Part shown: positions 29,811 through 36,393 of the stretch, piece after piece
How the letters are laid out: every line of letters starts with the position of its first letter
Numbering within the stretch: the first letter of the stretch is position 1
Source of the DNA: Pseudopelagicola sp.
GTDB taxonomy: Bacteria; Pseudomonadota; Alphaproteobacteria; Rhodobacterales; Rhodobacteraceae
Length of the DNA: 37,241 nucleotides
Direction: 5' to 3'
Assembly (NCBI GenBank): GCA_026195905.1
Contig: JAPHRE010000002.1
Span: 1 to 37,241 of the forward strand
Translations under genes and position numbers: made by a program
The notes under the pieces: model-generated
What the model saw: only the letters and a program-made list of their open reading frames with translations
Databases searched by the model: none
Told to the model about the DNA's origin: nothing

Positions 29811-32147
29811 GTGTCGGCTGGTAATCTCAATATTGCTCTTGTCCTGAAGCTCGTGGACGAAGTGACCAAGCCGTTGCGCAAGGTCACGGGGGCATTGGGC
29901 AAGGTTGGCGAATTGTCTGACAAGACCGGCCGCGCTGGTGTCGCCTGGTCGAACCGTCAGATTGAGGCCAATCGCGCCCGCCAAGCCGCTATGCAGGGCG
30001 AGATCCTCGGCCTTGCGGCGATGGGGGCGGGGCTTGTTGCTCTGACCGAACCCGCAGTGCAGGCCGAAGCGCGGATGGCCGAGATATCCAAGGTGGTCGA
30101 ATTCAAGGATGCGAACGGGTTGAAGCTCCTTCAGCGCGATATTCGTGATCTTGTGACGTCTGGTGGATTGGCCGCGACGGCAGATGGCGTAGCGGATATC
30201 GTTGCCGCTGCCGGTCGCATGGGGGTGGTGGATGCAAACCTCCCAGACGCAGCCAAGCGGGCTCAGCTTCTCGAGTTTGCTCAGGCCGCTTCCAAAATGT
30301 CGGTTGCGTTCGGTATCTCGGCCGAGGAAGCGGGCACCAGCCTTGCGAGGTGGCGGCAGAACCTCGGCCTGTCACAAGAGCAGGCTATGGCCCTTGGTGA
30401 CACGGTCAACCTCTTGGGCAACACCATGGCCACGAATGAGGCCGATATTCTCCAAGTTATCAATCGACAGGGGGTTGTCGCCAAAACGGCGGGGCTTGCT
30501 GCGAATGAGATTGCCGCCCTCAGCGCCACGTTCCTTGCGGCTGGCGCCAGCCCGGAGATCGCCGCCACAGGGCTAAAGAACTTTACCAACGTGATGGTGA
30601 AGGGTGAGAGCATGACCAAGCGCCAAAGCGCTGTGATCGATGCGCTTGGGATTGACGCGGTGGAGCTCGCGAAACGGATGCAAGTCGATGCGACCGGCGG
30701 CATCCTGTCGGTGCTCGATGCCTTCCAAAAGATCGAACCACACCGCCGCAACTCTATGGTGGGCGATCTATTTGGCGAAGAGGCCAAGGGTGCGATTATG
30801 CCGCTCATCGCCAATACAGACCTTCTGCGCGAGACTTTCGAGCGCACGGCCGACACGGCCGCGCTTCTTGGTCTTATGGAGGCAGAGTATCAGCGCCAGG
30901 CCGAAACCACACTGGCGCAGCGCCGCCGCCTGATGGAGTTCGTCAAGGGGCTTTCGGTTACCATCGGTTCGGTGTTGTTGCCCGTTCTCAACGATCTGAT
31001 GTCCGCACTGATGCCGCTGATCTCGCAGATGACCGAATGGGCCGAGGCGCACCCGGAGTTGATCCGCATCGTCTTTGTGCTGGCCGGGGGGCTCCTTTTG
31101 CTCAAGGGGGCCGCCCTTGTGGCGGGGTTCGCCTTCACCACGTTGGCCGGACCGATCCTGCGCGTGATCTGGGCGGGCAGTTGGCTCTTGCGTATCGTGC
31201 CTGGCATCGGTCGGGTTTTGCTTTGGGTGACCAAGGGGCCGATGCGATTGGCTTGGGCTGGTCTGGGGCTATTGACCAAGGGTGTGAAAGCGCTTGGTCT
31301 TGCCTTTATGAAACTGCCGGTTGTGGTGATCTTCGCGGCCATCGCAGCGCTCGCCTATGCGATCTACGACAACTGGGATCAGATTGTCGCCTATGTGACC
31401 GAGAAGATCGACGCTGTCAAATCGGCCTTCGACGAAGGGCTGTTGAACGGAGTGTTCAAGCTATTGGCTGAGTTCAACCCGTTCACGCTTGCGATTGACG
31501 GGATGCAGGGCCTTGTCGCTTACGTGATGGACCTCTTAGGGGTGCCGGAAAAGATCGTTTCTGCCTTTGCTGAGTTCAGCCTGTTTGATACCGGGGTGGC
31601 CCTCTTGCTGTCGCTCTGGGATGGTATGGCCTCACTCGTACCGCAGATGGTGGCTGCGATTTCTGCAAAGCTTTCGGCGATTGTTCCCGACTGGATGAAG
31701 AGCGCATGGAATTGGGTTGCCGGTGACAGCGAAGAGGCCGCCGCAGGACCGAGTGTCGAGGGCAAGCGTGATGGTGGCGGTCCGGTGCGCCCGGGTTTTC
31801 TCTACCGGATCAACGAGCGTGGGCAGGAATTCTTTCAACCCGGCACGTCAGGGACCGTCCTGCCGGCACGGGCGTTGAAGGTCGCCACGGCGGCGGCGGC
31901 CATGACGTCCATCTCTGCGCCGCTTCTGGCGGATGCGGTGCCGATGCTCAGACACCTGGACCGCCGGCCGGCACTTTCCATGCCGACCTCTGCGCCGCAA
32001 GTGACGCGCCAGGGCGATACGATCACCATCAATATTGCCCCATCGCCGGGCGTAAGAGCCGAAGATATTGCGCGCGAGGTTGAACGGGTTCTGGCCCAGA
32101 GAGAGGATGAAAAGCGCGCAGACCTTCATGATGGGGTGGACTACTGA
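29811..32147 (+). CDS. Tail tape measure protein (P2 T / Mu gp42-like)
   Basis: 778 residues from a GTG at 29811. Pattern NIALVLKLVDEVTKPLRKVTGALGKVGELSDKTG at the start, a TP901-type core (EARMAEISKVVEFKDANGL, SVAFGISAEEAGTSLARW, GAIMPLIAN), then membrane-active hydrophobic segments at about 415-470 and 500-515. The C-terminal 120 residues carry GFLYRINERGQEFFQPGTSGTVLP. It sets tail length and helps DNA cross the host membrane. It overlaps U by 1 bp. Confidence 0.95.
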   Translation: MSAGNLNIALVLKLVDEVTKPLRKVTGALGKVGELSDKTGRAGVAWSNRQIEANRARQAAMQGEILGLAAMGAGLVALTEPAVQAEARMAEISKVVEFKDANGLKLLQRDIRDLVTSGGLAATADGVADIVAAAGRMGVVDANLPDAAKRAQLLEFAQAASKMSVAFGISAEEAGTSLARWRQNLGLSQEQAMALGDTVNLLGNTMATNEADILQVINRQGVVAKTAGLAANEIAALSATFLAAGASPEIAATGLKNFTNVMVKGESMTKRQSAVIDALGIDAVELAKRMQVDATGGILSVLDAFQKIEPHRRNSMVGDLFGEEAKGAIMPLIANTDLLRETFERTADTAALLGLMEAEYQRQAETTLAQRRRLMEFVKGLSVTIGSVLLPVLNDLMSALMPLISQMTEWAEAHPELIRIVFVLAGGLLLLKGAALVAGFAFTTLAGPILRVIWAGSWLLRIVPGIGRVLLWVTKGPMRLAWAGLGLLTKGVKALGLAFMKLPVVVIFAAIAALAYAIYDNWDQIVAYVTEKIDAVKSAFDEGLLNGVFKLLAEFNPFTLAIDGMQGLVAYVMDLLGVPEKIVSAFAEFSLFDTGVALLLSLWDGMASLVPQMVAAISAKLSAIVPDWMKSAWNWVAGDSEEAAAGPSVEGKRDGGGPVRPGFLYRINERGQEFFQPGTSGTVLPARALKVATAAAAMTSISAPLLADAVPMLRHLDRRPALSMPTSAPQVTRQGDTITINIAPSPGVRAEDIAREVERVLAQREDEKRADLHDGVDY

Positions 32148-32578
32148 TGCAAGTTGGCATGGTCATGATGGCGTTGGGGGTATTCCGGTTCGGCATGTCC
32201 TCTTCGAACTACCAGAAGATGTCGCGCACGGCGGCCTATCGCTGGGGCAAGGTTGTCCGGATAGGGCGTGAACCCGCGCTGCAATATGCAGGTCCGGATA
32301 CGCAGGAGATCACTCTTGAAGGGGTGATTTACCCGCATTTCAAAGGTGGCCTTCGACAGATTGAGTTGATGCGTCTCAAGGCAGGCGGCGGACAGCCGAT
32401 GATGATGGTCGATGGTCTTGGTTGGGTCTGGAAGCGCTGGGTGATCGTGCGGGTGGAAGAGCGCAAGAGCTACTTCATGCGTGATGGGGCTCCGCGCAAG
32501 ATTGAGTTCAGCATGACACTTCAGAGTTATGGGCCTGATGCGGGTGGCCTCAGTTCATTCCTGGGGAGCCTGCTATGA
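32147..32578 (+). CDS. U: Tail protein U (P2 gpU-like)
   Basis: 143 residues with the family signature ALGVFRFGMSSSNYQKMSRTAAYRW, QYAGPDTQEITLEGVIYP and SMTLQSYGPD. It lies between tape measure and X as in P2. It acts at the tail end or baseplate assembly. It overlaps X by 4 bp. Confidence 0.94.
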   Translation: MQVGMVMMALGVFRFGMSSSNYQKMSRTAAYRWGKVVRIGREPALQYAGPDTQEITLEGVIYPHFKGGLRQIELMRLKAGGGQPMMMVDGLGWVWKRWVIVRVEERKSYFMRDGAPRKIEFSMTLQSYGPDAGGLSSFLGSLL

Positions 32579-34280: not shown

Positions 34281-34484
34281 TTGACAAACAATGAGCACCG
34301 TTGCGGCCGATGCCGCCGTCTTCTCTTCAAATCCGCCCCTGGCGCCATCGCTGGGCCGATTGACATCAAGTGCCCGAGGTGTAAGGCTTACCTCACATTG
34401 AGGCCTCCGAGCCCTTCACCAGATCGCCCCGAGCGAGACGGAAAGGAAGCGGAGTGTGGCTCTTCGTTCCCCCCCAAGACATGA
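34281..34484 (+). CDS. com: Com-like zinc-finger translational regulator
   Basis: 67 residues from a TTG that directly follows an in-frame stop (TAG 34278-34280), so it is the earliest possible start. HRCGRCRRLLFKSAPGAI...DIKCPRCKAYLTL reproduces the two CxxC pairs of Mu Com (Cys8, Cys11, Cys31, Cys34). In Mu, Com binds the mom message and opens its ribosome site. Here the gene overlapped at its 3' end is a cytosine methyltransferase (start 34456), not mom, suggesting the same control applied to another DNA-modifying enzyme. Confidence 0.85.
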   Translation: MTNNEHRCGRCRRLLFKSAPGAIAGPIDIKCPRCKAYLTLRPPSPSPDRPERDGKEAECGSSFPPKT

Positions 34485-35361
34485 CGACTTTCGCGGCATC
34501 AGCCTTTGCGCCGGTGTCGCAGGACTGGATCTCGGACTTCACATCGCGGAACCGGGATATCGAACTGTGTGCTATGTCGAGCGAAACGCTTTCGCCGCGG
34601 CCGCTCTCGTGGCGCGGATGGCGGACGCGTCCTTGGCTGCAGCTCCTGTCTGGGACGATCTCAGATCCTTCGACGGCCGACCTTGGCGTGGCAAGGTTCA
34701 TCTCGTCTCAGCCGGATATCCCTGCCAGCCCTTTACCCTCTCAGGCCTCAGAAAAGGAGAGGATGATCCCCGTCACCTCTGGCCCGATGTTGCCCGGATC
34801 GTCGAAGAGGTCCGCCCCGAATGGTGCTTCTTCGAAAACGTACAAGGCCATCTCACCCTTGGTCTCAGAGACGTCGTGGGAGACCTTCAACGAATGGGCT
34901 ACCGGGTTGCTGCGCGCATCCAATCAGCGGCTGAAGTTGGCGCGAGCCACCAGCGCAACCGGCTCTTCATTCTGGCCCACGCCGACGTTCAAGGGCTCGG
35001 GCAATCGGGCCTGCCTGATGGTGGGGCCGGAGGGTTTGAGGTTTCAGAACGACCTCAATCAGACCGGCACGCAGATCGGAATCCGGAATGCGACGAGCGC
35101 CTGGACCCTTCTGTGGGATATCTTGATGGCGAGCGGCTGGGAGCCGGGACCGTTCCCCTCTTCGCACCGGGTCCGGGTGAGTTTCGGATCTGGGGCAAAA
35201 CGCTCAAGCGATGGCCCGAGCTTAAATCCTGCCTTTACCGACTGGATGATGGGTTGGCCGATGGGTTGGACCGATGCGCGGCGGCCGGCAACGGGGTGGT
35301 CCCGCTGGCTGCAGCGCGCGCGTTCAATGAATTGAAGAAGGAGCTTCTGTCGAGAGACTGA
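34456..35361 (+). CDS. DNA (cytosine-5) methyltransferase
   Basis: 301 residues from a GTG at 34456, 29 bp inside com. Motif I ISLCAGVAGLDLGL (15-28), motif II CYVE (Glu42), motif IV GYPCQPF with catalytic Cys90, motif VI FENVQG (Glu127), motif VIII HQRNRLF (165-171) and a motif X-like AAAGNGVVP near the end are all present. It transfers methyl groups from SAM to cytosine C5 at an unknown target and should protect phage DNA from restriction. It is short for the class, so the target-recognition region is small. No matching restriction enzyme is seen. A second long frame overlaps it throughout. Confidence 0.9.
   Translation: MALRSPPRHDDFRGISLCAGVAGLDLGLHIAEPGYRTVCYVERNAFAAAALVARMADASLAAAPVWDDLRSFDGRPWRGKVHLVSAGYPCQPFTLSGLRKGEDDPRHLWPDVARIVEEVRPEWCFFENVQGHLTLGLRDVVGDLQRMGYRVAARIQSAAEVGASHQRNRLFILAHADVQGLGQSGLPDGGAGGFEVSERPQSDRHADRNPECDERLDPSVGYLDGERLGAGTVPLFAPGPGEFRIWGKTLKRWPELKSCLYRLDDGLADGLDRCAAAGNGVVPLAAARAFNELKKELLSRD
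34481..35335 (+). CDS. Possible overprinted protein inside the methyltransferase gene
   Basis: A 284-residue frame starting at an ATG that overlaps the com stop (ATGA), the standard junction in this phage; it may also be read from a GTG at 34454. It lies in a different frame from both com and the methyltransferase. It carries GSSFWPTPT (161-169) and LNPAFTDWMMGWPMGWTD (248-265), which resemble motifs of phage proteins I know from methyltransferase neighbourhoods, plus a helical segment WETFNEWATGLLRASNQRLKLA. Long chance frames are frequent in GC-rich DNA, so this is a candidate only. Confidence 0.35.
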   Translation: MTTFAASAFAPVSQDWISDFTSRNRDIELCAMSSETLSPRPLSWRGWRTRPWLQLLSGTISDPSTADLGVARFISSQPDIPASPLPSQASEKERMIPVTSGPMLPGSSKRSAPNGASSKTYKAISPLVSETSWETFNEWATGLLRASNQRLKLARATSATGSSFWPTPTFKGSGNRACLMVGPEGLRFQNDLNQTGTQIGIRNATSAWTLLWDILMASGWEPGPFPSSHRVRVSFGSGAKRSSDGPSLNPAFTDWMMGWPMGWTDARRPATGWSRWLQRARSMN

Positions 35362-35397
35362 TCACCCTACAGTGGCTTTTTGTGTGATGAAGGAGCG

Positions 35398-36393
35398 ATG
35401 GCGGTGAGCGACGATAACAGCAACGGAAATTCCCCTCTAGTAAAGATTGAGAATGTTCATCTGTTTGGGAAAGAGACGGATGCAGCATTGGCTGAAATCG
35501 TCCGGGGCGCCCTTGGAAAACCCACATCGGCTGTTGGAGACCTTGTGGAATCCGGTGTCGGCATCCTCCACGACCACGTGCGGATTTTCAGGATGGCCAA
35601 CACTGCGGACGGCGTGCTCAAAGTAAAGAGAAAACTAGAGGCAAAAGGCATCAACGCTCACGACGCTCAAAGGATTTCTGAGGGGAATTTCTATGAGTTG
35701 CTTGATGGCATGAGCCGAACGGATGATGCCGGTTTGCAGGATATGTGGTCTCAACTCATTGCGGAGGCGATGGACCCGAAAACAAGCACCAAGGCTGACC
35801 GTTCCTTCACTTCTGTGTTGAACCAGATGACACCGATGGATGCCAAAGTTCTTAACTTCATTGGTTTCGCAGAAGCGGCGCTTCGCCAAGCAGAGGGCGA
35901 GCACAGGCGTAAGGGGAATGCCGTGCTTCAAAAGCGCGGTTCAGCTGATGAAATGATGAAAAAGGCGCAGGAGTTGTCGCGTGATGGAATGAAGAGTGCC
36001 AACATGACGATGTCAGAAATGGGGCGGTACATTAGCGAACATGGGCTTGAAACGGATGATGTGATCGACTCCGTAGTCAACCTGGTTAGGTTGGGCGTGA
36101 TCGCGGAAAGCCTTGCACCGGTATCTGGCCCGAGCCTTCACGCGCCGAGGGGGAACTCGTCTCGAGACATTCAGCATATGGCACAACAAATGCAGCGAGA
36201 ACTCGAACGTTTTGGTGAGTTGGAGCGCAAGCGGCAAAGCCCGGTTGAGGAACCTAAAAAGCTCTTCGAATACTTTAGCCCATTGCAACTTGGTCTGCCT
36301 GCAGAAGAGGTAGAGCACTGGGTGCGCGTCAATTATGTCTTCACACAGTTTGGCCTGAGGTTGGGACGTGGTTGTGGGTTCGCGGCTCTATAG
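35398..36393 (+). CDS. Abi-alpha (DUF4393) family protein, probable phage-defence cargo
   Basis: 331 residues from ATG 35398; AAGGAG is only 2 nt upstream, so GTG 35404 is a possible alternative. The segment VGILHDHVRIFRMANTADGVLKVKRKLEAKGI, then MSRTDDAGLQDMWSQLIAEAMDP and FTSVLNQMTPMDAKVLNFI matches Abi-alpha/DUF4393. The C-terminus (HWVRVNYVFTQFGLRLGRGCG) also fits. Family members are linked to abortive infection. Base composition is visibly lower in GC than the virion genes, as expected for a transferred cargo gene. It probably blocks superinfecting phages in the lysogen. Confidence 0.78.
   Translation: MAVSDDNSNGNSPLVKIENVHLFGKETDAALAEIVRGALGKPTSAVGDLVESGVGILHDHVRIFRMANTADGVLKVKRKLEAKGINAHDAQRISEGNFYELLDGMSRTDDAGLQDMWSQLIAEAMDPKTSTKADRSFTSVLNQMTPMDAKVLNFIGFAEAALRQAEGEHRRKGNAVLQKRGSADEMMKKAQELSRDGMKSANMTMSEMGRYISEHGLETDDVIDSVVNLVRLGVIAESLAPVSGPSLHAPRGNSSRDIQHMAQQMQRELERFGELERKRQSPVEEPKKLFEYFSPLQLGLPAEEVEHWVRVNYVFTQFGLRLGRGCGFAAL

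Follow-up and report, generated by a model that had tools for sequence, protein, structure and literature searches.

A phage C5 cytosine methyltransferase that appears to be encoded as two subunits in overlapping frames of the same DNA

The small chain of the C5 methyltransferase M.EcoHK31I is read from a different frame within the gene for its large chain. The enzyme reportedly consists of two polypeptides, an account attributed to Lee, Kam and Shaw in 1995. PMC3404938 places motifs I-VIII and X together with a predicted target-recognition domain (TRD) in the larger subunit, which leaves motif IX as the sole motif of the smaller one; PMC3439449 also treats the enzyme as a two-polypeptide C5 methyltransferase. 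The locus studied here, in a window of 37,241 nucleotides (the whole stretch of DNA that was analyzed), resembles M.EcoHK31I, the likeness being one of description rather than of compared sequences: a large chain, alpha, has motifs I-VIII and X, and motif IX would be on a second chain, beta. Because the alpha/beta pair matches that design and extends it, we regard it as a variant of the M.EcoHK31I kind, and we consider it probable that two polypeptides read from the same stretch of DNA at this locus assemble into a single C5 cytosine methyltransferase. Behind the two-chain reading stand conservation, codon-position constraint, the partition of motifs, and the predicted structure of alpha by itself. 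Feature coordinates are collected in Table 1.

Table 1. Features of the methyltransferase locus in window coordinates, and three canonical loci from other phages that are open in the +1 frame over codons 60-160.
Feature	Position	Strand	Details
com homologue (Mu Com zinc ribbon)	34281..34484	+	PF10122 E 7.3e-9; phrog_6417 E 3.1e-12
Shine-Dalgarno-like AAGGA, 6 nt 5' of beta start	34443..34447	+	
Staggered starts: beta GTG 34454-34456 / alpha GTG 34456-34458, one base in common	34454..34458	+	
Beta, +1-frame protein, 293 aa, with motif IX-like C-terminus	34454..35335	+	GTG start proposed; phrog_1008 match; open in relatives
Alpha, C5 cytosine methyltransferase frame (frame 0)	34456..35361	+	GTG start; 301 aa
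Beta WPTPT motif, overlapping alpha motif VIII (FILAHAD)	34973..34987	+	
Target-recognition-like region, constraint follows beta frame	35002..35151	+	codon-position differences
Beta motif IX-like LNPAFTDWMMGWPMGWTD, overlapping alpha just 5' of motif X	35222..35275	+	LNPxFxxWxMGWP
Canonical loci open in +1 over codons 60-160	L404 (1309-2172), L416 (1300-2181), L408 (1492-2538)		

The earlier note on this DNA had described two long frames on the same strand, and both are present: alpha at 34456-35361 and a +1 frame running to 35335. It had begun the second frame at an ATG overlapping the com stop. That ATG does exist, at 34481, and would give the 284 residues described, but as a start it is the later alternative; GTG 34454, the earliest start of the +1 frame in the window (protein reading MWLFVPP...), is favored by the window's clade and seems to us better placed. 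In this clade NTG-TGG is followed in the beta frame by M-W-[LI]-[FYH]-x-P. Across 39 distinct start-anchored sequences of the clade, the first two bases of the proline at beta codon 6 are invariant, and beta codon positions 1, 2, and 3 are conserved at 0.81, 0.85, and 0.60 over codons 2-7, of which codons 2-4 are partly conditioned because the start-anchored loci were chosen by a W-L-aromatic pattern. The NTG-TGG start pair was present in 51 of 133 complete relatives. In 31 of the 45 start-anchored loci having the pair, no earlier start precedes the alpha GTG in its frame; for the beta NTG this holds in only 12, the beta frame having an earlier possible start in the other 33. A Shine-Dalgarno core lies at most 20 nt from the start in 35. 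Another clade gives beta its own ATG, mostly read M-A-W-C-H-V-P, and in several low-GC phages beta can begin only beyond the first ∼60 codons.

The com homologue lies directly upstream, and its last 31 nt (34454-34484) overlap the starts of both alpha and beta, so that all three forward frames are used there. A com-like CxxC..CxxC frame overlaps the starts in 32 of the 45 start-anchored loci. In phage Mu, Com activates translation of the modification gene, opening an RNA stem over the mom start. The position of both starts within the end of com suggests that Com switches alpha and beta on together, as in phage Mu, a role that it would have by likeness to the Mu system. RNAalifold, applied to 23 start regions, predicted no base pair of a conserved stem or hairpin at the alpha/beta start. 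The element also carries transposase, terminase, portal, tail sheath, and tape-measure genes; we read the transposase as Mu-type from phrog_310 beside com. The gene 3' of the methyltransferase (35380-36393, + strand) encodes an Abi_alpha protein (PF14337, E 1.7e-18) that also matches the PADLOC candidate PDC-S47 (best E 6.8e-9), and is a possible phage-borne abortive-infection gene.

The first relatives were found by searching with alpha alone, a choice blind to the +1 frame, and expected stop counts were derived by shuffling synonymous codons within each gene. In 142 distinct relatives (39,809 codons), 27 stops were observed in +1 against 395 expected, and the +2 frame of the same genes was ordinary (1149 vs. 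1199). The earlier proposal of a conserved protein in the second frame is borne out, and these alpha-found relatives carry it inside C5 methyltransferase genes. The window alone, with 1 stop vs. 2.4 expected (p 0.24), is non-significant; the signal stems from the relatives. A wider set was built by adding alpha queries from Paenibacillus, Acinetobacter, and Mycobacterium phages, host-family genomes, and named phage records. Its 240 non-redundant dual-frame genes (73,589 codons; no two of a class with more than 60% of 5-mers in common) have 166 stops in +1 where 1016 would be expected, and 163 of the 166 fall within the first 60 codons. The earlier note had taken second-frame stops in relatives as telling against the frame; beyond codon 60 and before motif IX, only 3 of the 166 occur in these 240 genes. 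Over codons 60-160 the dual-frame genes have 3 stops vs. 483 expected, and 32 canonical genes have 113 vs. 120.

As a set, canonical C5 methyltransferases (n = 31, a count covering both strands) had 367 +1 stops vs. 355 expected, and none was open throughout. Canonical enzymes from the same host family are likewise closed in +1 (199 stops vs. 177 expected), in a control that took in 15 of 30 canonical and 19 of 20 partial loci. GC content is not the cause of the openness, because the dual-frame class stays stop-poor below 50% GC (91 stops vs. 236.5 expected, n = 31). Judged from these comparisons between sequences, the second frame is genuinely coding. Among the 32 canonical enzymes there are three that lack any +1 stop over codons 60-160 (5-7 expected) and have motif IX in frame 0; they come from Streptococcus phages pST and Javan318 and Brochothrix phage BtpYZU03 (41-42% GC). 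Openness of the +1 frame and loss of motif IX are therefore not strictly coupled. In pST a nested CDS is annotated in the +1 frame. Candidate explanations for the open stretch in these three are a relic, a separate protein, or something else.

Alpha is a PF00145 catalytic domain with motifs I-VIII at about 34489-34983 and motif X (GNGVVP) at 35287-35304. No motif IX was found in the window's alpha by a phage-type pattern (a narrow one, which also found none in 133 relatives), a canonical pattern, or an HMM. Modeled alone, alpha has the large domain of M.HhaI without the small domain, and residues 179-236 and 259-278 have pLDDT values below 50. In beta, the motifs GSSFWPTPT and LNPAFTDWMMGWPMGWTD occur where the earlier note had placed them, and residues W174, T176, and P177 are conserved in at least 90% of 66 beta proteins. 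Beta matches phrog_1008 (E 5.1e-16), as do all 66 aligned family members. The beta tail matches a canonical motif IX profile weakly but in the right place (single-target E 0.016). An HMM built from the +1 tails matches four single-chain actinophage enzymes in frame (E 7e-12, 1.9e-9, 6e-7, and 0.019), in which the motif IX-like module sits between motifs VIII and X. Beta had no significant Pfam match (one to PF01828, E 0.031 and below the cut-off, was taken as chance) and no meaningful match among PDB sequences, where short matches to MS2 coat protein (best E 0.00075) were also attributed to chance. A tblastn search of beta against the phage collection, with the low-complexity filter on, returned nothing at 1e-5, and beta modeled alone gave a poor structure (pLDDT 46).

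Among 396 methyltransferase cores from 408 loci, motif IX was found only in +1 in 343, only in frame 0 in 35, and in both in 1. By class, the 396 comprise the 343 with motif IX in +1 only, 33 canonical, 2 fused, and 18 unassigned cores; the last are 7 that run off a contig end, the 6 loci L394-L399, the two-ORF loci L402 and L406, and L043, L185, and L149 (motif IX in both). Because of how loci were gathered (by similarity to the window's alpha and three phage alphas, from host-family TIGR00675 matches, and from named phage records), 343 of 396 is a biased frequency; 27 of 423 ORF matches were left out as partial, and 10 cores were moved to the canonical class by eye after the motif pattern had missed them.

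Codon-position differences indicate which frame is selected where. The reduced synonymous variation that the earlier note had predicted for dual coding was found in alpha: at 60-80% protein identity its four-fold sites differ by 26.7%, compared with 47% in com; the one other control at this identity, a single pair of the gene at 32147-32578, differs by 64%. At comparable protein identity (0.54-0.63), canonical enzymes differ by 0.65 at third positions and three dual-frame groups by 0.39-0.51. Along the gene, third-position differences are flat in canonical enzymes (0.61-0.70), and in alpha of group A (43 sequences, 735 pairs) they range from 0.23 to 0.52. In the target-recognition-like region of the same 43 sequences, alpha codon positions 1/2/3 differ by 0.54/0.53/0.43 and 0.51/0.43/0.36, and amino acids by 0.78 and 0.72 in alpha vs. 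0.66 and 0.57 in beta; alpha positions 1 and 2 are thus more variable than position 3, unlike the pattern of coding in frame 0 only. A second clade (45 of 70 sequences used, identity 0.81) has the frame-0 pattern over motifs I-VIII, with third positions differing by 0.20-0.37. Past motif VIII its alpha positions 1/2/3 vary by 0.28-0.32/0.05-0.06/0.05-0.09, the pattern of a +1 gene, and amino acids differ by 7-9% in beta and 31-34% in alpha. Constraint thus shifts to the other frame immediately past motif VIII, with a partial return at motif X. The per-group scan used at most 45 sequences each, and the groups with identities of 0.81 and 0.84 are unmatched to the canonical set at 0.62. A stricter, paired-codon test on 150 pairs gave a modest BLOSUM excess (mean z 2.6 in +1 vs. 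0.9 in +2), with 66% of pairs in +1 and 7% in +2 exceeding all 60 nulls; in raw identity the excess in +1 (0.499 vs. 0.492) did not surpass that in +2 (0.443 vs. 0.434).

In the explanation that we propose, alpha would make the large catalytic domain, consisting of the AdoMet and catalytic motifs I-VIII, a poorly conserved bridge, and motif X. Beta, from its own start 2 nt upstream of that of alpha, would supply motif IX along with what is probably a large part of the target-recognition region; the N-terminal half of beta, which lies over motifs I-VIII, may keep the subunits joined. Both chains would then assemble into an active enzyme marking phage DNA against host restriction. Two assembled subunits are proposed because of the motif partition, the constraint, and the precedent; translation of beta, assembly, activity, specificity, and control by Com are the steps that we infer. 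The earlier note had suggested a partner or an inhibitor of the methyltransferase. The partner role is supported; we found no evidence in support of inhibition. Its idea that the second protein arose by overprinting probably holds for the N-terminal half of beta, which looks overprinted on motifs I-VIII, but the C-terminal half seems to be a part of the enzyme that has been displaced, because some phage methyltransferases carry the motif IX module in frame in one chain.

Three other explanations were weighed. On the first, the second frame is open by chance because the DNA is rich in GC, and its motifs are shadows of conserved alpha motifs. This would account for WPTPT as the +1 reading of alpha FILAHAD and for the non-significant stop count of the window alone, and very GC-rich members of the family expect few stops anyway. 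Yet the stop deficit among relatives is confined to +1, same-host-family canonical enzymes are closed in that frame, openness persists below 50% GC, and in the recognition region third positions are more conserved than first. We reject a chance frame as extremely improbable on the relatives' stop deficit, the low-GC openness, and the codon-position pattern, which contradicts it. The handover of constraint just past motif VIII and its partial return at motif X would also be expected if ribosomes were programmed to leave frame 0 for +1 once past motif VIII and to return ahead of motif X, yielding one canonical chain, and single-chain in-frame relatives exist. This we consider very unlikely: two shifts would be needed, in the window's clade the separate start of beta is conserved and its N-terminal half is under constraint, neither of which a shift product would require, and M.EcoHK31I is two polypeptides (PMC3404938).

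It is likewise unlikely, if less sharply so, that beta, in whole or at least in its N-terminal half, is an independent protein such as a regulator or inhibitor that shares the gene and is no methyltransferase subunit. The lack of a significant Pfam or PDB sequence match, the poor model of beta, and the three low-GC phage enzymes that are open over codons 60-160 with motif IX in frame 0 are in its favor. Against it, the motif IX absent from alpha has its like in beta, the two locations are nearly exclusive over the 396 cores, and the same motif IX-like module stands in frame in single-chain enzymes.

In a maximum-likelihood tree of the catalytic region (106 rows, with L165 entered twice; root not fixed and some branches long), 24 canonical sequences stand apart with branch support of 99/99. 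Dual-frame, in-frame, two-ORF, and fused sequences all lie across that branch from them, and the actinophage forms that are in frame or have two ORFs branch from within the dual-frame sequences. The simplest reading of this topology would be one old origin of the dual-frame arrangement with later re-fusions. We think it likely that dual coding characterizes an extensive and ancient clade of phage C5 methyltransferases whose hosts belong to Pseudomonadota, Bacillota, Actinomycetota, and Cyanobacteriota, with catalysis evolving in frame 0 and target recognition and motif IX in +1, that annotation usually records one subunit, and that the nested single-chain actinophage forms may be re-fusions. 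The 22 named phage records comprise 12 dual-frame, 4 single-chain in-frame, 2 two-ORF, and 4 canonical enzymes. Ten of the 12 dual-frame records annotate alpha only, one beta only (Acidovorax phage Alfacinha1 gp46, L167, where beta is called 'cytosine-specific methyltransferase' and the catalytic frame is unannotated), and one, Escherichia phage K1ind3, both.

Several further arrangements were observed. A third dual-frame clade (LNPxFVEALMGWPT; L198-L209 and L211-L213) has two loci each in some host-family genomes, e.g., G023. In L394-L399 alpha stops soon after motif VIII and +1 stays open, possibly another two-ORF form. In the single-chain actinophage enzymes L409 and L411 the +1 frame stays open for a long way across motif VIII and beyond it and contains LPTPRATDG-like repeats; it may be what remains of an earlier beta frame. 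The viral contigs L231 and L297 have motifs I-VIII and the motif IX module in one frame, but the chain ends without motif X, which could be due to indels or assembly errors.

Among known systems, PMC3404938 describes M.AquI as an enzyme split after motif VIII with motif IX on the second chain, as is proposed here; it differs in that motif X is also on its small subunit. Mycobacterium phages Hammer and Pioneer are closer to M.AquI, with two annotated ORFs of which the second has the motif IX-like segment and motif X. In these loci (L402, Hammer gp91/gp90; L406, Pioneer) the ORFs overlap, motifs I-VIII are in the first, and the frame of the second extends upstream inside the first. The enzymes of prophiFSIL01-1, Philonius, Rothia phage Spartoi, and Gordonia phage MelBins share the motif IX-like segment followed by motif X but are single chains with all motifs in one frame. 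In ShiLan a second protein is also hidden in another frame of an actinophage methylase gene, but in PMC11855218 it is an HNH homing nuclease encoded by a mobile insertion and no methyltransferase subunit. Among the matches listed in the plasmid searches, no record was named as the M.EcoHK31I gene. No title or abstract opening in the literature searched, which took in few subscription papers, described an overlapping subunit in phage C5 methyltransferases generally; absence is not thereby proven.

A long same-strand overlap in which both proteins are seemingly parts of one enzyme is, in our judgment, unusual, and since hundreds of natural sequences exist, the constraint shared between the frames is directly measurable. 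Cloning or scoring of phage C5 methyltransferases as single genes may in many cases have left out a subunit that they need. Compared with M.EcoHK31I, whose predicted TRD is in the larger chain (PMC3404938), the recognition region here is constrained in beta, beta overlaps nearly all of alpha, and the starts are staggered (GTGTGG) and overlap com. This near-whole-gene overlap, the staggered starts within com, the beta-constrained recognition region, and the wide distribution are what is new here relative to M.EcoHK31I.
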